Positions 3,125 through 57,421 of a stretch of DNA of 64,000 bases are shown in pieces. Position 1 is the stretch's first letter, and each line of letters begins with the position of its first letter. The notes under the pieces are model-generated. The model saw nothing but the letters and a program-made list of their open reading frames with translations. It did not search any database and was not told the DNA's origin. Source of the stretch: Candidatus Xianfuyuplasma coldseepsis (GTDB taxonomy: Bacteria > Bacillota_I > Bacilli_A > Izemoplasmatales > Izemoplasmataceae); assembly GCF_014023125.1 (NCBI RefSeq), contig NZ_CP048914.1:1640698-1704697 (forward strand). Reading direction: 5' to 3'. Position numbers and translations under genes: made by a program.

Positions 3125-6100
3125 ATGCGAAAATTTTTAATAATTATCACGGCATTGGTCATGAGTCTGATTTTAACAGCTTGTAATGATGATGGTGAAG
3201 TTATTGCACCGACTTTTGTTTCTGTACGAGTTGACAATATTGAACCGGTTACCGGTGGTGAGTTTTATACATACTATCGTGGTAAAGGTGATACGGTCAC
3301 TGTTGAGGTTGCCCTCACCAATCCCAGTAATTTAAAAATAAAATCTGTGGTAATTAATGGGTATACTCATTTTTCCACGAAGTTTGATCCTACATCTACG
3401 AACACCTTGATTACCTTTGATTTGGATGTCGGAACAACATTGGAAGAAACCATTTACTCCGTTGATCGAATCAACTATTTAGATGGTGAAAACAATCAAT
3501 ACGTGACCATTACCAACAATAATGAGTTCCGTGTTTATGTCTATAAAGATTTACCAAGCATATCACGGGAAAACTTTAGTACTACAATCGAATCCATTTC
3601 TGTTGATTTCAACATTGAAGATGAAGATAGTGTCATCTTACCCGATACACTAATCGCATATCTGTATTCCGGAGAAACGCTAATTGACTCAGAAAGTATT
3701 GAAAGTGGGTTAATTACAGTAACCTTTACCGGTTTGCTGGCGCATCGCGATTATGAGATTAAAATCATCGGATCCTATGATCTTGATGATGGTAATGACG
3801 TGCAAAGCAATATACCTTTATATAGTGAAACATACTCAACATTGCGCAAAGGACTGCCTAGTGCAAGTATCGAAAATGTTGAAACATCCAGTAATTCCGT
3901 CACATTCGATGTGAACTTTAACGATGAAGATAATGTTGTCACACCTGGTGGACTCGTTGTAGGTATCTATAACGATGATATTTTGGTGGATTCCATAAAT
4001 CTCACTGGTACAACGACAGAATTGACTTTTGAGGACTTACTAAATGATAAAAGTTATGATATTGAAGTACGCGCTGATTACGACTTAAATGATGGAATTG
4101 GGGTGCAAGAAGATAATACTCTTGCGATTCATACCTTTTCGACTTTACCACGTCAGGTACCAACACCGGCGATTTTGAACATGGATTTGCAGGAAAATAG
4201 TATTGAGTTTGATGTCTTCATCAATGATCCATTTGACGTGATTGATGAAACCACTTTATACGCTGAAATTTATATTGAAGGCGAATATGTTGATACAGCG
4301 GTTATCGAGCAATACCATGTTGATTTCCAAGTAAGCAACCTCTTCAGTAATAAAGACTTCACGATTAAAATCCTAGGAGACTATGACTTAAATAACGGAC
4401 TCGGGATTCAAGAAGATCAAGTTCTTTTGTCCAACACGTACAACACATTAGAAAATGCGATTCCGTCGATTAATATAGTAGGAATCCTTGTCGAACAAGG
4501 GTACGTTACTATCGATCTTCAGGTACTCGATGCCAATGAGACATTGATGGGAAGCATTGAAGCATTTTTATATGAAGGGGATACCGTTGTTCAAACGGTA
4601 GAGTTTGATAAAACAGCAACTCAAATCATATTTGATTACCCAACCACTTCAGAAACAAATTACTACATCGAGTTTGTCGCGGATTATAATTTACGCGATG
4701 AAACAGGAGCGAAGTTTGATCAAGTCTTACGACGGATCGTGTCCTATACCGCAGAAGACAAAGCGCCAATTGCTGAAATCCACAATGTCGTAGCAACAAC
4801 ATCAACGATTGATTTCGATGTGGTTATCATCGATGCGGATGGAACGAGTATACCAGGTGAAACCTATGCATATCTATACTTAGGATCCACAGAGATTACC
4901 AGCGTCCTGGTTAGCGAGGGACATAACTCGATTGAAGTAGATGGCCTGTTATCCAATAATCAATATACGATTGAAGTAATCGGTGATTACAACTTGGATG
5001 ACGGTAGTGGGGTCTTAGAAGATATGATGTTGATCGCACTCGATGTAATGACGTTGAGCAAAGACTTGCCAACGTACGATTTACTCGATTCAGAGCAAGA
5101 TCAAAATAGCATTACCATCGATGTCGATATTATCGATGACTTTGGTGTTGTTGAACCAGGAAGTATCATTGCGGAATTACTCTATGAAGGTACATCCATT
5201 GCAACCCAACCACTTGTCATTGGTGAAAATTTCAATATTGAGTTCGTTGGATTATTATCCGATAACAACTATACAATACGCCTCTATGCCGATTATGATT
5301 TGAATGATGGTAATGGCGTAATAAGTAATTATATGATTGACGAAATAACGATAAAAACCGATCGCAATGATGAACCTAGTGCATCAATCATTTCGCAACA
5401 AGCAAATCAAGAGACTATTACTCTTGGCATTGAAGTTTACGACGTACATAGCGTGATTACGGGGAATCTCCGCGCCATCTTGTTAGAAGTGGATAGTGGA
5501 ACGGGAGACCTTATTCCAACGGGTGATGAAATAACTCTAAATGTTGGAATTAACAACAATGTTACATTTGACACGGTATATGCGGAAACAAGATACTACA
5601 TCAACATTGTTGCCGATTATGACCTCAATGATGGTGAAGCAGCTGTTACCGATGCATTGTTGGAACAAATCTCGTTAACAACAACGGGATACAACCGTGT
5701 ATTTGGTAGTATTTCCAATGTGATAGTAACAAGTAATTCGATTACATTTGATACGTTTGTAAATGATGATAGTTCAATTATTACAGGAAACTTACAAGCG
5801 GTATTGTATAAAGATGACGTGGCAACGGGAGACGTTGTTCCGGTCGTTCTAGGAGCACAAGAAGGTGTTGCATTCCTAGGTGTTGATTCGGCGACGGATT
5901 ATACGATCAAACTCGAAGCGGACTATGATTTAAATCTTGAAACATCGCCAGAACTCGCCGTTGTTCTTGATGAAGTTGATGTTCGTACCGATGATTTAGC
6001 CGCACCGACAGTAGGCTTTGGCAACTTAATTACGGATTATACGTCGTTTATCGTTGATATTGAAGTGCGTGATAATGATGGTACAATTACCGATAACTTA

Positions 6101-9100
6101 ATTGCAGAACTGTATGAAGATGGGTTAAAAATTGCTGAACAACCTCTTACAGTAGGTCAAAATCTCGCGGTTGCATTTGATACCTTATATTCCGATTACG
6201 ATTATACTGTTCGCGTCTTTGCCGATTATAATCGAAACGATGAACTCGGGGAACAGTTGCATCAAGAAATTGGTACATTTGAACTTCATACCGATACCAA
6301 ACCATTACCAGAATATGTACTAAGTAATTTATCATTAACGAAAACAGAAATCACCTTCAACATTACCTTTGATGATGTCGAAGATGTCATGATTGATGGA
6401 ACGTTATATGTTGGATTATATGTTGGCGATAGTCTTATCGATGAAATTCAATATGATAGTGACACTGTGTCTTTCGATATTGCCAATTTCATTGCCGACT
6501 TTGATTTTGAAATCCGCTTCACAGGTGATTATAACTTAGGTGATAATCAAGGTGATGTACTGGATGGAACAATTGCATCCTTAACCTTTACAACCTTGAC
6601 AAATGCTGTACCTGAAGCAAGTATCACAGGCGCAGTTGCAACACAAACAACGGTTGAAGCTACCGTTAATGTAACCGATGTTGACAACACTATCGTAGCC
6701 GGATTAGAAGCACGATTAATCGATAATACTGGTGCTGAAGTTGCACCGGCGATCCCATTAGTCGTTGGTAGCAATGCGATAAGCTTTGATTTCACAACAA
6801 TGTATCAAGAACTCTATCGCGTGGTGATCGTTGCCGATTACAACCTTCGTGATGCAACCGCAACACAAGATGATGCTATCTTAGCTGAAACTGTTGTATC
6901 AATCTATAATAAACTAATACCTGAAGCTATCATTAGTGATATCAATTTGGATCAAACATCCATCACATTTGATGCGATGGTATATGACAATGATGCTACC
7001 ATTATTGCTGCATCAACCTTTGTTCAACTCTACTTGGATGGTACATACATTGATCAATTACCACTCGATATTAATCTTCTTAATGATGATTTATCCTTCC
7101 CGGGATTGAGATCTAATCGTGATTACGAATTACGAGTAATCACAGATTATGACAGTAGTGATGGGGTAGGAACCTACGCTAATCAAACGTTGGTAAGCAC
7201 TGTAGTAACAACGAACGCACAAGCAGCACCAACAACTAGTGTATTAGAAGATTCGATCACGGAAGATAGTATTATCGTTGATGTTGTCATCACCGATACA
7301 GATGCCGTCAGTAGTGAACGCCGTGTCGTCTTATATGACCAATTTGGTACTGTAGTAGAAACAATCTTAGTCTCTATCGGAACAAATGATAATGTAACCT
7401 TTAATACTGGATTATATGCGAATGAAAGTTATACCGTGAAAGTCTTTATCGACTATGATTTAAATACGGGTCTTTCAACAGTGATCAATGAAGAACTTGC
7501 AAGTTCAACGTTCACTACCGACGCTTTAGAAGCACCAAGTGCGAGCTTTAATATTGATGGATTTGATGCGGATAGTATTGATTTTACTGTAATCGTTGAA
7601 GATGACTATAGTGTAACAAATAACCTTAAAGCAGTATTATACTTGAATGGTTCTGAAGTGGATTCGATTCCGTTGAATGTCGGGGAACAAAGTGAAACCT
7701 TTAGTGGACTAGCGTCAAGTAGTGAGTACCTCATTCAAATTGAAACCGATTATGACCTACAAGAACGTAGTGGTGAAGTGTTTGGAGAAGTTATAGTATT
7801 TACCTACCAAACAACGAGAGCAGTACTGATACCAGTGGTAAATATCGGTAGTATCGCAACAGACTTTGATGCTTTTGATGTAGGTATTACGGTCGTTGAT
7901 GATGATGGCGCGATAACCGGCAACTTAAAAGCGGTATTATATAAAGATGGTATAGCTACTGTCCAAGAAGAAGTTTTAGTTGTTGGAGAAAACACCGTCA
8001 CCTTTGACACATTACTCGCAAATAACGAGTATGAAGTAAAAGTCTTCGCTGACTACGATTTAGAAGATGGTGCTGGTGAACAAACCGATGTTGAGTTTGA
8101 TAGTCAACTCGTTACCACCGCTGCCAAAGAAACTCCAAGTATTCAAACCAGCAATGTCTCAATCACCTACGATCAAGTAAGCTTTGACGTCCGTGTCTTA
8201 GACAATAATGGTGTCTATACAAACAACACCTTAATCGCATCATTATATGATGGTGTAACGTTGATCGCATCCCAAGAATTATTAACCGATCAAGTTCTAT
8301 TCGATCTCAGTGGTTTCATCGCTGATTACCCATTCGAGATTCGTATTACTGGAGATTATAATTTAGATGACGGTAATGGATTAATTGATGATGGTGTCTT
8401 AGCAAGTATTGAACTACGTACTCTAGCCTATGACGCACCAAGTATCAGCATTGGCGATATCACACCGCATCAAAACAGTGTCGACACTACCATCGTTGTC
8501 ACGGATAATGATGACACTAGCGTTGTCGCAACCATCATTGCTACATTGTATGATGAAACTGAAACCCCGATGGATTCCGTCGTTCTATCCGTAGGTAGCA
8601 ACGATGTCTCCTTCAGTCATACAGTTACTCAAGATCAATTCTATAGTATAGTCGTCACGGCTGACTATGATTTATTGGATGGTACCGGGGTACAAGATGA
8701 TGCCATCTTAGGAGAAGCGGTCTTGATTTCATACAACTTACTCGCACCAGAAGCCGTGATTGAAAACATCGTCGTCGATGAAACAAGCATTACCTTCGAT
8801 GCGACAATATATGATAATAATTCTGTCACAACCGGAAATTTATATGCCCAGTTATATCTTGATGGTGTATATGAAGCACAAACAATTATTAACGTTGGTG
8901 CAAATCCAGGAGAAAACTTCACTGGTTTATTATCTGGAACTGAATACGAAATTCGTATAGTCACAGATTATAATAATGGTGATGGAAATGGTGTCTATAG
9001 CAGTGTTATGGCAATATCAGAAACTGCTACTACAGATTCGTATGCAGTACCAACTGCATCATTTGATTTAGATACTCTGAATAACGATACTATTATTGTT

Positions 9101-48579: not shown

Positions 48580-48656
<77 letters not shown>

Positions 48657-48669
48657 TTTGAACTTAACT

Positions 48670-48690
48670 AAGCCCTTTTGGGCTTTTTTA
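48670..48690 (+). terminator. Terminator after tRNA-Arg
   Basis: AAGCCC/GGGCTT stem followed by TTTT. It belongs to the inserted element (brought in with the tRNA 3' half). Confidence 0.85.
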
Positions 48691-48797
48691 TTTTTTATAT
48701 CACTCTTCGAGGCCGTAGGTGGGGGGGAGCAACGGCCTACATATGTCATTTACTATGGTGTGTTCATATGGTATAATTATTCAAGGGAAGTGATGTT

Positions 48798-49499
48798 ATG
48801 GACATAATTGTTTTTAAGAAAATTAACATATATCGGCAGGGTTTATTCATTGCTGCAATACTGTTCTTCGGATATGGAAGTTTAGTAACTGAAACGTATT
48901 TTATTACAGTTGTCTTGTTATTTATACTAGCCTATATCATATATACTGTTTATCTATTTATTAGAAAAACAACATATATGAAAATAAATAGTACTGAAAT
49001 ATCACATGGTATTATATATAAACAAAACATTCCAATTTCGGCTATTACTGACATTCAATACTTTGATGATAATGTTTTTGGCAAGAGACTGATTATTAGG
49101 TATAAATCAACACAACTAAGGCAATTATTACTCAGAAATGATTATAGTATGCCTTTAGAGGAAATTAACAACAAGTTAATTGAATTGTGTCGTGATAAAG
49201 TTGTTTTTGATGGTTCGATAATTAAGCAGAATAAAAAGGATAATCAAGGTCCTAAATATTTTGTAGTATTTTTCTTTTTACTTCAATTATTGCTAATTCC
49301 TTTTATATCTGATGCGAATCACTTAATAATAAGCAGTAAACTATATACAATTATTATTATTGGATTTACGATTGTTGGTATAGTCACACATTATATACTC
49401 TATAAGAGAAAAGACGAGAAATATATTTCACTGAAAATTGCCTTGATATCATGGATTATATTATTGTTGATATTGATTTCGTCGATGTTTATATACTAG
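48798..49499 (+). CDS. Membrane protein with PH-like middle domain (233 aa)
   Basis: Two N-terminal TM helices (about 16-56), a cytosolic stretch of about 85 residues with strand pattern like bacterial PH domains (YMKINSTEISHGIIYKQNI, ISAITDIQYFDDN), then four C-terminal helices. ATG after GGGAAGTGATGTT. First gene of the integrated element, next to the tRNA. AT-rich codon use. Function unknown; it may be cargo or an exclusion factor. Confidence 0.65.
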   Translation: MDIIVFKKINIYRQGLFIAAILFFGYGSLVTETYFITVVLLFILAYIIYTVYLFIRKTTYMKINSTEISHGIIYKQNIPISAITDIQYFDDNVFGKRLIIRYKSTQLRQLLLRNDYSMPLEEINNKLIELCRDKVVFDGSIIKQNKKDNQGPKYFVVFFFLLQLLLIPFISDANHLIISSKLYTIIIIGFTIVGIVTHYILYKRKDEKYISLKIALISWIILLLILISSMFIY

Positions 49500-49528
49500 T
49501 CTTAATTATTGATTATAAACTCATGAAT

Positions 49529-49552
49529 AAAGCCCCAATTAAGGGGCTTTTG
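49529..49552. terminator. Bidirectional terminator
   Basis: AAAGCCCC/GGGGCTTT hairpin between the membrane protein gene and the convergent recombinase gene. Confidence 0.9.
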
Positions 49553-50416
49553 TTATGCTCTGAGGCCAGATAGATAGTTAACTCGTTCATACTCCATACG
49601 GAGTTTTTCAGCGTTGATATGGAGGTATTTTTGAGTGGTTAGCAAGGTGGTATGACCTAGTAAGATTCTTAGTACTTCCATGTTTCCGTTTTTACTGACA
49701 AACTTGGTTGCGAATGTGTGTCTCCATTTATGAGGAGATATCGAGTATCTTGTTTTAATTTTCTGTTGGAGGTTCTGGCATATCTTTTGAACACGATCAA
49801 CCGATAATGGTTCTCTGGTTGTTAGGTTGATGAAGATATGAGAATCTATCTTTTGTCTTACAATGTATTGTGTGAGTAGTATTTGTGTTTCAGGGGAGTA
49901 GAACACATATCGGTCGACCTTTGTTTTTGTGGTTGTGACTAATATGGTACGAGTTTCAAAATCGAAGTTTTGGATTCGAAGCGATAGCAATTCACTAATG
50001 CGTAAACCAGTATCAAGGAGTAAATGGAACATGACTAGGTTTCGTAAGAACTCAGGGTATAAATCATTGTCTAGGTAATTGAATACCTTTTGTATGACAT
50101 TATCAGGTATAACCTTAATCATTTTCTTCTCTTCAGGGAGTTTATCGAACTTGACAATGATATCACATTCATTCTTCAAAATACGAAGTAATAGGCCGAT
50201 ATACTTGTTTATAGAGGCATTTGTTATCTTGTGGTTTCTATCTCTCAAAAAGAGAATGAAGTCGAGAATAAATGCTCTATCAATCAATTCACAATCGGTA
50301 TTGCCAAAGTAGTCTAATAAGGTTTTGGTTTTTCCTTTTGTGAATCGGTAGGTACCTTTTGATTTTGTGACTTGAATGTATTTCTCATATGATTTGATAG
50401 CCTGTTTTAATTTCAT
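49553..50416 (-). CDS. Tyrosine recombinase (integrase) of the element
   Basis: 287 aa. N-terminal SAM-like core-binding domain (about 1-95), then the catalytic domain with Arg139 in LLLDTGLRISELLSL, Lys164/166 in TTTKTKVDR, His229 and Arg232 in HKWRHTFATKF, His255 in LLGHTTLLTTQKYLHI and the nucleophile Tyr264. All six catalytic positions are present, so it is probably active. AAGGAGGTGCGAAC before the ATG. It is co-transcribed with rep, 12 bases downstream of it. XerC/D-like length without extensions. The obvious enzyme for recombining the tRNA-half sites. Confidence 0.93.
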   Translation of the reverse strand: MKLKQAIKSYEKYIQVTKSKGTYRFTKGKTKTLLDYFGNTDCELIDRAFILDFILFLRDRNHKITNASINKYIGLLLRILKNECDIIVKFDKLPEEKKMIKVIPDNVIQKVFNYLDNDLYPEFLRNLVMFHLLLDTGLRISELLSLRIQNFDFETRTILVTTTKTKVDRYVFYSPETQILLTQYIVRQKIDSHIFINLTTREPLSVDRVQKICQNLQQKIKTRYSISPHKWRHTFATKFVSKNGNMEVLRILLGHTTLLTTQKYLHINAEKLRMEYERVNYLSGLRA

Positions 50417-50428
50417 GTTCGCACCTCC

Positions 50429-51337
50429 TTAGAATAGATTTTTGATTTCTTCTTGGTCTTTGTCAAATTGCTTGATTTGTTCGAGGTTTCCACAGAGAGC
50501 GATTCGTCTGTCGAATGCTCTCATGGTGCTTGGGTGTTCCTCGCGAACATTGGCATATTGTTGTTTGTAGTCCCAATTACTGACAATGTAAACTTCTGTA
50601 TAACAAGCGACTTTATCACCATAACGAGCAGGTAGTCGCATGGGGTAGCCGTCTAGATAATTGAGCATTTGTTCGACTGGGAGAGAACTGCGAAACTCTT
50701 CGAATACAATGACTGGTTCTCCCTTGTAGCCGTCGAATGGGTGTTTGTAGTTGGAGACTCGATAGACATTCTGATAGCCGTATTTTTCCATGATGTAGCG
50801 AGTTTTTCCGACTCCTGGTTCATCTACTAAATATCTCGCACAAATCTCTCGAAATGTTTCTTTGAACTGTTCTTCCAAGTGTTCTTGCATGGTATTGTTG
50901 ATATTGGTTCGATATCGAATGTATTGGCTTGAATAGGTCTCTTTTATCTCTCTTATGGAGTAGCCTTCCTTTATCATGGAGTAAATATCTTCTAGATCAC
51001 TGCGTTTACCTTGTTGGGGTAATTCACCAGATATGACAACCTCTGATATTCTGGTATCTTCTTTGGTACAATAATCACTTGCTTGTTTGGGTGTACCTTG
51101 CATATACTCTATATGAGCCTTTGGAAATAGTTTCTTTATGGTCTCAAATGATTTGGCATTCTCGAAACTGATATATATTTGATGATGTTGGGTTCCGTTT
51201 TTTCCTTCCTCCAACTGAAAAGCAGTATATTTGAATCCTTTGATGTTTTCGATATACTTCAATAATTCTTCATTTGTCATTGGCTTTTCTTCTTTATAGT
51301 TGTTAGTTAACAGCCAATTTCTATTCCTTTTTTTCAC
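50429..51337 (-). CDS. CRESS-type replication initiator (HUH nuclease + SF3 helicase)
   Basis: 302 aa, the domain order of circovirus-like Rep proteins. HUH part: motif I NWLLTNN (7-13), motif II GTQHHQIYISF with His51/His52, motif III DYCTK with nicking Tyr89 and Lys92. Helicase part: Walker A DEPGVGKT (172-179), Walker B VIVFEEF (209-215), motif C IVSN (Asn254), and an Arg-rich AFDRRIAL. All catalytic residues are intact. GTG start with AAGGTGA six bases upstream. Related Reps occur on bacterial CRESS plasmids, including those of phytoplasmas; they nick the origin and drive rolling-circle replication. Confidence 0.93.
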   Translation of the reverse strand: MKKRNRNWLLTNNYKEEKPMTNEELLKYIENIKGFKYTAFQLEEGKNGTQHHQIYISFENAKSFETIKKLFPKAHIEYMQGTPKQASDYCTKEDTRISEVVISGELPQQGKRSDLEDIYSMIKEGYSIREIKETYSSQYIRYRTNINNTMQEHLEEQFKETFREICARYLVDEPGVGKTRYIMEKYGYQNVYRVSNYKHPFDGYKGEPVIVFEEFRSSLPVEQMLNYLDGYPMRLPARYGDKVACYTEVYIVSNWDYKQQYANVREEHPSTMRAFDRRIALCGNLEQIKQFDKDQEEIKNLF

Positions 51338-51367
51338 TTTCTATCACCTTACTTTTTGCACAGAAGT

Positions 51368-51395
51368 GTGTAAAGGGTAATACTAGCCTTTACAC
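51368..51395 (-). other. Rolling-circle origin hairpin with TAGTATTAC nonamer
   Basis: Perfect nine-base stem GTGTAAAGG/CCTTTACAC. On the rep strand the ten-base loop reads CTAGTATTAC, containing TAGTATTAC, the nonamer nicked in circovirus and other CRESS origins. It sits 31 bases upstream of the rep start. Stem, loop, strand and place all fit a working origin. Confidence 0.9.
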
Positions 51396-51461
51396 GTGGT
51401 TTCGGGTGGTGGCTACCCTGCGGGACGCAGCCGACCACACCTCACCACCAAACCGTACACG

Positions 51462-51543
51462 GTGTACCAATACGGAACACCTCATACTACCATTATAGTG
51501 TACCAATACGGAACTGTCAAGAAAAAGGTTCCATTTCGGAACC
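51462..51543. promoter_or_regulatory. Repeated operator-like sites between rep and xre
   Basis: Two identical 17-bp direct repeats, GTGTACCAATACGGAAC at 51462-51478 and 51498-51514 (36 bp apart), plus a palindrome GGTTCC-atttc-GGAACC at 51527-51543 that shares the CGGAAC core. The palindrome overlaps the -35 region for TATAAT at 51552. They are likely binding sites of the adjacent XRE protein or Rep iterons. Around 51410-51475 there are further small palindromes (CTGCG/CGCAG, GTACAC-G-GTGTAC). Confidence 0.6.
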
Positions 51544-51576
51544 CCTTATTGTATAATTGTATTGGAGGTGCTAATT

Positions 51577-52104
51577 ATGAATGTTCCACACGCCATGAAA
51601 GAACTACGATTGAAAAAGAAGAAGTCTCAGAAAGATATAGCAAAAGTACTAGGAATCACAAGACCTGCATATGTACGATATGAAACTGGAAATAGAGAGC
51701 CTGGTTTGAAAGTTATCTCCGAATTAGCAGAATATTACAATGTTCCTCCTAGTGTGTTCTTTATTTCAGATGTGAAAGGATTCAATATTGATAAAGAGCA
51801 GAACATCGATAAACTGTATCAGTTTTTTCAACTAAGACTGTACGACATGGACAATCTAACTTTCTTATTTCGTGCAAGACTCATGGAACAACAAGAGAAG
51901 TTTGCCTATGATAAACAAAATGATGTTTCCGAGAAACGATTTAAGGATTTTGTCAAAGCACTTGAACAAATCCATAATGATCTAGAACGAGTGAAGGCAA
52001 GATTACTACCAGTATTTATGCCAAGAAGTTTTGATGATGTTTTGAAAGAACCGAAATTACGATTTGAAGAGTATAAGGAATGGGCTAGAAGAATAACAAG
52101 TTAG
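51577..52104 (+). CDS. XRE-family regulator of the element
   Basis: 175 aa. HTH at residues about 5-60 (MKELRLKKKKSQKDIAKVLG, RPAYVRYETGNREPGLKVIS) and a helical C-terminal domain (about 75-170) that looks like a dimerisation or sensing part. Start at 51577 has GGAGGT eight bases upstream; the longer frame from a TTG at 51562 has none. It is divergent from rep, with operator-like repeats in between, so it probably decides between quiet integration and replication. Confidence 0.88.
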   Translation: MNVPHAMKELRLKKKKSQKDIAKVLGITRPAYVRYETGNREPGLKVISELAEYYNVPPSVFFISDVKGFNIDKEQNIDKLYQFFQLRLYDMDNLTFLFRARLMEQQEKFAYDKQNDVSEKRFKDFVKALEQIHNDLERVKARLLPVFMPRSFDDVLKEPKLRFEEYKEWARRITS

Positions 52105-52124
52105 TACTCAATGGGAGGGGTATA

Positions 52125-52259
52125 ATGCCAACATGGAAGAAACTAGCGATAATTTCACTTGTTATCGCGACATTAATACTCATATTTCAAGATTACAATA
52201 AAGGCTTCATATATCTAGGGGCATTTTCACTGGTCTCCTATGTGATATATCAAATTTGA
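52125..52259 (+). CDS. 44-aa double-helix membrane peptide
   Basis: MPTWKK then a hydrophobic helix (about 7-21), a DYNKG turn and a second helix (28-43). GGGAGGGG six bases before the ATG. Sits between xre and the 212-aa membrane protein. Too short for a family call. Confidence 0.55.
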   Translation: MPTWKKLAIISLVIATLILIFQDYNKGFIYLGAFSLVSYVIYQI

Positions 52260-52274
52260 GGGGGGGATGTTAAA

Positions 52275-52913
52275 ATGAATAAGTTTATCCGAAAACACTT
52301 TCTAACAACTATTTTATTCACATTGCTTATGTTCTACATTGTCAATATGAGTATTCAAGTTTATAGAGGTTATCAATTTGGAGAGATTGGTGATAATGTA
52401 TCAGTCGATTATAGACCACCCGTATTAAATCCGATGATAGTTGAGGGACTATCAGATGAGTTTATTGTCGCTTTCGATGTTACAAAGGATGTTGCATTTT
52501 TCTTTGATAAGGAAGGGATTTTAATCGATGTTTTTCGATTAGATTCTGCGGGAAGTGTTGAACTAGTTGATTACAATGATGACACACACGAGTTAACAGT
52601 TTATTACAATAGACGTCAAATATTTTATGTAATTGATTCGAGTGGAACTGTTATTGATTTATATGATGGTATACGACCGAGAAATCTACCGCAGAAAACA
52701 ACATGCACAGTGTTAAATGATAAAGAGTATTGTATGAATCATTATTTCTTTTTCATACGTTTAACTGTTGAAAAAGAATCAGCCACATCGATATTTTCTT
52801 CCTGGACATATGTAATAATTGGAACAGTTCTTTTTGTAATTGCCGGGATAATAGATAGAAATAGTTCTGAGTTATTTACGGAAGACAATAGTGAGAAATA
52901 TGAGTCGACTTAG
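52275..52913 (+). CDS. Membrane protein with extracytoplasmic domain (212 aa)
   Basis: TM helix near the N-terminus (about 10-30), an extracytoplasmic beta-rich domain of about 140 residues with a Cys pair (TTCTVLNDKEYC), then a second TM helix (about 175-195) and a short tail. Ends 33 bases before the first tRNA-half copy. Unknown function; cargo of the CRESS element. Confidence 0.65.
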   Translation: MNKFIRKHFLTTILFTLLMFYIVNMSIQVYRGYQFGEIGDNVSVDYRPPVLNPMIVEGLSDEFIVAFDVTKDVAFFFDKEGILIDVFRLDSAGSVELVDYNDDTHELTVYYNRRQIFYVIDSSGTVIDLYDGIRPRNLPQKTTCTVLNDKEYCMNHYFFFIRLTVEKESATSIFSSWTYVIIGTVLFVIAGIIDRNSSELFTEDNSEKYEST

Positions 52914-52945
52914 CAAATCTCAGAGACAAAACAGGGGCCAATATT

Positions 52946-52991
52946 ACTTCTAAGCCGTCGGTCGGGGGTTCGAATCCCTCCCGGAATGCCA
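52946..52991 (+). repeat. tRNA-half attachment copy 1 (45/46 identical)
   Basis: Anticodon loop through CCA of tRNA-Arg, identical over 45 bp (52947-52991). Marks the right end of the CRESS element and the left end of the next unit. Lacks the 5' half, so it is not a tRNA gene. Confidence 0.95.
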
Positions 52992-53448: not shown

Positions 53449-53494
53449 CCTTCTAAGCCGTCGGTCGGGGGTTCGAATCCCTCCCGGAATGCCA
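53449..53494 (+). repeat. tRNA-half attachment copy 2 (46/46 identical)
   Basis: Identical to 48611-48656 of the tRNA. Preceded by TATATTC, a shorter version of the GATATTC that precedes copies 3 and 5. Confidence 0.95.
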
Positions 53495-54728: not shown

Positions 54729-54774
54729 CATTCTAAGCCGTCGGTCGTAGGTTCGAATCCCTCCCGGAATGCCA
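54729..54774 (+). repeat. tRNA-half attachment copy 3 (43/46)
   Basis: Three substitutions against the tRNA, one at the second base and two in the T-stem. Preceded by CACGACGATATTC, nearly the same as before copy 5. Confidence 0.93.
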
Positions 54775-55424: not shown

Positions 55425-55470
55425 CCTTTTGAGCTGTCGTTCGGGGGCTCGAATCCCTGGCGGAATGCCA
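55425..55470 (+). repeat. tRNA-half attachment copy 4 (39/46)
   Basis: Seven substitutions; the CCA end and T-loop region remain clear. Confidence 0.88.
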
Positions 55471-55898: not shown

Positions 55899-55944
55899 CC
55901 TTCCAAACCGTCGGCCCACAGTTCGAATCGATCCCGGAATGCCA
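55899..55944 (+). repeat. tRNA-half attachment copy 5 (37/46)
   Basis: Nine substitutions, mostly in the T-arm stem. Preceded by TACGACGATATTC, as before copy 3. Confidence 0.85.
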
Positions 55945-56672: not shown

Positions 56673-56718
56673 CCTTTTAATTCGTTGGTAGGGAGTTCAA
56701 ATCCCTACGCGAATTCCT
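56673..56718 (+). repeat. tRNA-half attachment copy 6 (34/46)
   Basis: Twelve substitutions. The T-arm can still fold (TAGGG/CCCTA), but the CCA end is lost. Confidence 0.7.
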
Positions 56719-57375: not shown

Positions 57376-57421
57376 CCCTAGAAGCCGTCGATCGGAAAAT
57401 CGAATCCTTCTAGGAATGCTA
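57376..57421 (+). repeat. tRNA-half attachment copy 7 (34/46)
   Basis: Twelve substitutions. Followed by TTTGAACTTGAC, very like the TTTGAACTTAAC after the intact tRNA. Confidence 0.72.

Follow-up and report, generated by a model that had tools for sequence, protein, structure and literature searches.

Integrative plasmids with a CRESS-type Rep are known across bacteria and are regarded as the source of the eukaryotic CRESS-DNA viruses (PMC6668415). The p4M-like members of this group, pCRESS1-3, known since 2017-2019, combine a nuclease-helicase Rep without the YLxH signature with site-specific integration and carry no capsid genes (Kazlauskas 2019, PMC6668415). The element described here is of this known kind and shares these traits, including site-specific chromosomal integration as indicated by 45-bp perfect direct repeats at tRNA-Arg. 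It differs from pCRESS1-3 in that an array of passenger cassettes occupies the same tRNA site; its rep-int operon under a divergent repressor may be a further difference.

Other described systems resemble single aspects of the locus. Streptococcal integrative mobilizable elements (IMEs) likewise unite an integrase and a Viral_Rep (PF02407) initiator in one chromosomal element (PMC5357655), whereas the element in the window has no coupling protein and a replication-type origin. The ssrA islands of Dehalococcoides are arranged in tandem downstream of one RNA gene, copies of the 3’ end of this gene form their boundaries, and about half of them lack an integration module (PMC3146451). They differ by a serine recombinase, a tmRNA target and by being described as without independent replication (PMC3146451), while the window array consists of small, mostly single-gene cassettes, is associated with a tyrosine recombinase and has a replicon at its head. 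In the tandem accretion of ICEs, IMEs and CIMEs, recombinase-less elements keep attL and attR and share a site with active neighbours (PMC5704250). The passengers in the window are unlike such decayed conjugative elements, as they mostly comprise one gene directed away from the tRNA. Integrons share the small same-direction cassette array, apparently newest at one fixed site, as well as a Xer-like recombinase. Here, in contrast, the fixed site is a tRNA gene, the cassettes have apparent promoters of their own with a tRNA half in place of attC, and the recombinase scores far below integron-integrase cut-offs (63.6 bits with TIGR02249, cut-off 265). An integron reading was rejected on finding no IntI-type integrase and tRNA 3’ halves instead of attC.

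The new part may be the array itself, which is anchored at a tRNA, consists mostly of single-gene cassettes with the same direction and is common to unrelated rolling-circle replicons. Such an array shared by CRESS and Rep_trans replicons was not found described in the open-access literature, a scope that makes this weak evidence of novelty.

Layout and control of the element

The window, i.e. the whole 64-kb stretch of DNA that was analysed, is part of the 1.96-Mb, single-contig chromosome of an Izemoplasma-type bacterium. It contains a 4335-bp unit (48612-52946) holding a CRESS-type Rep and a tyrosine recombinase between perfect 45-bp repeats. A preceding sequence-only reading was centred on 49553-51395, which spans int, rep and the ori stem-loop, and had named perfect 45-bp repeats as the bounds of a 4.3-kb circle. 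Indeed, the repeats at 48612-48656 and 52947-52991 are identical in 45 of 45 positions. They correspond to the 3’ half of tRNA-Arg(TCT), beginning at the anticodon loop, and their positions result in a repeat-to-repeat unit of 4335 bp, so that the size of the circle was correct as well. Judged from the sequence, chance is ruled out for the element because of the exact 45-bp repeat, the unique nonanucleotide with its 9-bp stem and the relatives with the same gene order. The features are as follows.

48580-48656, plus strand: tRNA-Arg(TCT), intact integration target (ARAGORN; Rfam tRNA, 65.7 bits)
48612-48656, plus strand: att copy 1, 45 bp, tRNA 3’ half from the anticodon loop
48711-48735, plus strand: P’-side motif GGCCGTAGGTGGGGGGGAGCAACGG, putative accessory recombination site
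48798-49499, plus strand: cargo ORF, membrane protein of 233 aa (ORF list)
49553-50416, minus strand: tyrosine recombinase (int), Xer-like, 287 aa (Pfam PF00589, catalytic residues, XerA-like structures)
50429-51337, minus strand: CRESS Rep, HUH endonuclease and SF3 helicase, 302 aa (Pfam, phmmer, AlphaFold model match)
51368-51395, minus strand: predicted rolling-circle origin GTGTAAAGG-[CTAGTATTAC]-CCTTTACAC (DNA fold z=-3.0; kept in relatives)
51462-51477, minus strand: putative operator repeat, copy 2
51492-51520, minus strand: rep-int promoter TTGACA-17-TATAAT (exact consensus)
51498-51513, minus strand: putative operator repeat TTCCGTATTGGTACAC, copy 1, within the promoter spacer
51527-51543, no strand: palindrome GGTTCC-n5-GGAACC, possible repressor site
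51577-52104, plus strand: divergent HTH repressor gene (Pfam HTH_3, 1.9e-15; NCBIfam NF041951, 2.6e-10)
52125-52259, plus strand: small membrane ORF, 44 aa (read off the sequence)
52275-52913, plus strand: cargo ORF, membrane protein of 212 aa (ORF list)
52935-52946, plus strand: P arm GGCCAATATTAC, right end of the element
52947-52991, plus strand: att copy 2, same sequence as copy 1, bounding the element on the right

The 233-aa cargo ORF has no match in Pfam, PHROG, PADLOC or NCBIfam, and the 212-aa and 44-aa ORFs belong to no recognised family. Neither capsid, Zot or conjugation genes nor an excisionase are recognisable in the element. A prophage reading was rejected, as no capsid, Zot or phage-structural match was obtained for it.

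The genes rep and int are consecutive on the minus strand, only 12 bp apart, and seemingly form one operon. The consensus promoter is directed at rep. One copy of the 16-bp repeat sits in its spacer, the other follows 20 bp downstream, and the palindrome lies upstream. The best curated match of the divergent HTH gene is the RstR family (NF041951), although below the family cut-off. In two relatives (G013 and L093) repeats are found at the same place over the promoter but with different sequences, consistent with what is expected if repressor specificity is element-specific. Owing to the predicted operon, rep and int would be controlled jointly.

Rep, recombinase and their relatives

Rep matches Viral_Rep (PF02407, 2.8e-13) and the SF3 family RNA_helicase (PF00910, 1.3e-4). 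Among solved structures the Rep of PCV2 is closest (7lar, E=1e-18, phmmer). The AlphaFold model (pLDDT 81) reaches a TM to target of 0.74-0.83 with the nuclease domains of circovirus and nanovirus Reps and of 0.70 with the ATPase domain of PCV2. The nuclease motifs are WLLTNNY (I), QHHQIY (II) and YCTKE (III), the helicase motifs PGVGKT (Walker A), VIVFEEF (Walker B), a sensor-1 SN and an RR finger, whereby GKT, FEE, SN and RR are invariant or near-invariant among relatives. The statement that all HUH and SF3 motifs are intact is thus borne out with two qualifications: motif II has the circovirus form H-x-Q and is not HUH in the strict sense, and in Walker A another residue stands in place of the first Gly. 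With nuclease motifs I-III, a C-terminal SF3 domain and a stem-loop origin nearby, the protein is a CRESS-type (Viral_Rep) initiator.

The sole plasmid match of Rep among 72,556 records is p4M (30-31% identity, E=1e-32). Motif III (YCTK) is without the YLxH signature, as in the p4M-like cluster pCRESS1-3. Walker B, sensor-1 and the Arg fingers, which separate pCRESS1, 2 and 3 (PMC8780604), point in different directions: the Walker B Glu fits pCRESS1/2, the sensor-1 Asn is against 1 and two Arg fingers are against 2/3. As a separate observation, the Rep encoded on contig L097 (5473-6522) is 57% identical to the window Rep in its helicase part but seems dissimilar in its N-terminal half, and is possibly chimeric.

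The recombinase (Phage_integrase PF00589, 2e-30) has XerA-like proteins as nearest solved structures. Its catalytic set of R, K, HxxR, H and Y is complete, as had been claimed; an arm-binding domain was not identified. At the same tRNA-Arg, related recombinases of G017 and G046 are accompanied by a Rep_trans initiator in place of the CRESS Rep, and others adjoin tRNA-Phe, -Trp, -Thr or tmRNA genes. Beside a tmRNA, contig L103 of G046 contains a segment duplicated in tandem (4337-7906) that comprises a 194-aa ORF and the gene of a 316-aa recombinase.

Of 90 genomes of the order, 4 carry the Rep. The order HTH repressor, ori-rep-int, tRNA is found in the window genome (G000) and G013 at tRNA-Arg and in G050 at tRNA-Phe. 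Outside the order, G470 shows repressor, ori-rep-int and tRNA-Trp with a Rep identity of 52%. On L093 repressor and ori-rep-int are present with no tRNA within the available stretch. G016 keeps HTH gene, rep and int, while its ori region is masked as N and its tRNA-Arg lies on another contig. Identities to the window proteins decrease from G013 (Rep 70%, Int 75%) over L093 (61% and 51%) to G050 (56% and 40%). As both drop in the same order, the sequences are consistent with joint inheritance of Rep and Int. For the elements of G050 and G470, the stretches examined contained no distal att copies. Several relatives are draft bins, and three tRNA-Arg contigs of G017 were rejected as a proof of mobility: their upstream flanks are 18-27% different, therefore the bin mixes species. 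In Oscillospiraceae, two contigs (L004 6330-10462, L005 610-4704) show a CRESS Rep between two putative integrase-type genes beside tRNA-Leu.

The replication origin and RF03070

The predicted origin is located 30 bp upstream of rep and consists of a perfect 9-bp stem with a 10-nt loop, CTAGTATTAC, containing the nonanucleotide TAGTATTAC. The latter occurs as a single copy in the whole window, and a stem of at least 6 bp around it was found in none of 200 Markov sequences of 64 kb. The nonanucleotide is identical in G013, L093 and G470 as well as in four inovirus-type contigs with a related Rep (L069, L070, L094, L095). In G050 it is kept upstream of Rep with one stem mismatch, and the p4M nonanucleotide, TAGTGTTAC, differs by one base. 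Origins of PCV carry the octanucleotide AxTAxTAC within the loop of a stem-loop (PMC2690592), and by its sequence the loop in the window fits this pattern.

The Rfam family RF03070 ('ssNA-helicase RNA', typed as sRNA) has a consensus stem-loop carrying TAGTATTA and matches the window origin at 51360-51396 (minus strand) below threshold. Moreover, it matches CRESS origins upstream of Rep genes on L069 (756-805; 42.6 bits, above cut-off), L094 (3223-3268) and L093 (5946-5982). Based on these sequences, RF03070 probably represents an origin of DNA replication rather than an RNA; a published account to this effect was not found in the open-access literature. Two further RF03070 stem-loops with TAGTATTAC (47.3 bits; L105 of G366, L106 of G427) are situated beside a gene resembling the end of a tRNA synthetase, with no Rep in the 3 kb examined, and may each represent an orphan origin or an integration scar.

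Between promoter and origin of the window element lies a GC-rich block (51399-51457) that is conserved in G000 and G013 (GGTGAGGTGTGGT..GGCTGC..CGCAGGGTAGCC.CCACCCG), possibly a leader structure or a single-strand origin.

The tRNA-Arg array, the proposed cycle and its alternatives

Downstream of the tRNA copy there are seven further att copies with edit distances of 0, 0, 2, 7, 9, 12 and 12. Those beyond the element close the passenger units u1 to u6.

53450-53494, plus strand: att copy 3, identical; closes u1 (105-aa membrane ORF)
54730-54774, plus strand: att copy 4, 2 mismatches; closes u2 (SoFic-type Fic adenylyltransferase)
55426-55470, plus strand: att copy 5, 7 mismatches; closes u3 (lipoprotein)
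55900-55944, plus strand: att copy 6, 9 mismatches; closes u4 (82-aa membrane ORF)
56674-56718, plus strand: att copy 7, 12 mismatches; closes u5
57377-57421, plus strand: att copy 8, 12 mismatches; closes u6 (GNAT acetyltransferase); methyltransferase gene next

Att decay correlates with the distance from the tRNA (rank correlation 0.97, p=7e-5, tRNA copy included), and the newest unit of the window array apparently adjoins the tRNA. In some other arrays the gradient is weak (G013 rho 0.43, p=0.19; pooled p=0.03). In the arrays of the relatives 52 complete units were delimited, 40 of which are ≤2.6 kb (median about 1 kb); the longest ORF is directed away from the tRNA in 38 of these 40. Cassette genes are common to different genera (86 and 76% identity between G015 and G025), and the Fic cassette gene is found in G000, G025 and G028. 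Since the same cassette genes recur in different genera, the sequences indicate that cassettes have moved. The stem-loop origin is absent from all units except the CRESS elements. The passengers of the window have att sites but neither a recombinase nor a CRESS origin.

The P arm, i.e. the 12 bp before the right-hand core, is alike in all three tRNA-Arg CRESS elements (window, G013, G016) and recurs in passengers u1, u2 and u4 with 2-4 mismatches. With up to four mismatches it is found elsewhere only in these three units of the window genome and in four units of G025. The GGCCGTAGGTGGGGGGGAGCAACGG-type motif, which lies some 100 bp in from the left end, has at most one mismatch in the three tRNA-Arg CRESS elements and is also present in passengers u4 and u8 of G013. 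Units u3, u5 and u6 have a different arm, of a type found on elements pairing a related recombinase with Rep_trans. A GAAACC-type arm is found on most other units and on the Rep_trans element of G017. Five genomes have tRNA-Arg arrays without a CRESS Rep (G017, G046, G025, G015, G011). In the near-complete G048 and G028 arrays are present, while no recombinase of the element's family exceeds the general Xer-like level.

The sequence-only reading had cast the element as driver of the array. This holds in part: three of six passengers bear its own arm, but the other three bear another arm and related arrays lack a CRESS Rep. Given the different arm on three passengers and the arrays without a CRESS Rep or family recombinase, the element is one of several candidates for supplying the recombinase. 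The simplest reading of the sequences would be that several recombinase-bearing elements come and go, each serving the passengers of its arm type.

The genes, motifs, origin, att repeats, gene order, att decay and cassette sharing between genera described above are observations. From them we infer, with a probability of roughly 80%, that the unit at 48612-52946 is an integrative rolling-circle CRESS plasmid (p4M-like/pCRESS) that would be subject to repression, excise and replicate as a circle, and mobilise passengers in trans. With complete catalytic residues, a circovirus-type origin and clean att sites it appears to be an intact integrating relative of ssDNA-virus replicons, which may be live as had been suggested. 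In the integrated state, the divergent repressor would bind the repeats over the rep-int promoter and keep the element silent. Once repression is lifted, Rep and recombinase would be produced from one operon, and the recombinase would join the two tRNA-half copies, so that a 4.3-kb circle is released and a single intact tRNA stays behind. At the predicted circle junction the P arm GGCCAATATTAC would be joined to TTCTAAGCCGTCGG and continue through the tRNA half into TTTGAACTTAACTAAGCCC. Rep would nick TAGTATT/AC in the extruded stem-loop such that the circle is copied by rolling circle, and the recombinase would put the circle back at the same tRNA anticodon loop. Because each insertion would restore the tRNA and shift the old half downstream, an array with the newest unit beside the tRNA would arise. 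The passengers, having att sites but no recombinase or CRESS origin, would be movable only by a recombinase in trans: that of the element for its own arm type, related recombinases for the others.

For Izemoplasmatales in general, we tentatively consider it possible, at less than even odds, that tRNA-Arg serves as a fixed, integron-like capture site where Xer-like recombinases of CRESS and Rep_trans replicons move promoter-bearing single-gene cassettes in trans, stacked by arrival. The array may illustrate how CRESS replicons supply a stock of gene cassettes kept at a tRNA gene, as a cassette system distinct from integrons. A small complete genome carries the entire unit of repressor, origin with circovirus nonanucleotide, Rep, recombinase and att sites, therefore replication and excision are testable together.

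Among the alternatives, a fixed island that is no longer mobile survives best but is unlikely. Its att copies would be old duplications and its genes would persist by chance; no circle was observed and the distal att copies are decayed, as such an island would have it, but there is no mismatch among the three proximal att copies, Rep and recombinase are both intact, and no part of the operon, origin or promoter is missing.

Slightly less probable is an IME whose Rep acts as a relaxase-like initiator exploiting the conjugative machine of another element. While streptococcal IMEs that pair an integrase with Viral_Rep are described (PMC5357655; PMC5704250), all PF02407 IMEs in the study of PMC5357655 have a coupling protein and the element has none. 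Moreover, the T4SS coupling ATPase (PF02534) has no match in the genome, and the site that Rep is predicted to nick belongs to a replication origin of the viral type.

It is very improbable that a filamentous (inovirus-type) phage supplied Rep, origin and RstR-like repressor and that the unit is its remnant or its satellite, with a helper for packaging: the closest phage Reps are encoded in inovirus-type genomes that have Zot and share the origin loop, and RstR is the best match of the repressor, but these Reps are only 36-43% identical, the Izemoplasma-type elements cluster apart from inovirus-type phages in the Rep tree (in which 'ino' tags are not reliable), the element has no coat or Zot gene, and a Zot match was obtained in 0 of 49 family genomes.

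A 16.8-kb element of G046 was also considered as an inovirus-type prophage and dropped, as it was not supported by searches with Pfam, PHROGs and Zot. On one inovirus-type contig (L095, 4930-4990) we observed a match to the type-P1 twister ribozyme close to threshold (60.8 bits, cut-off 67.2).
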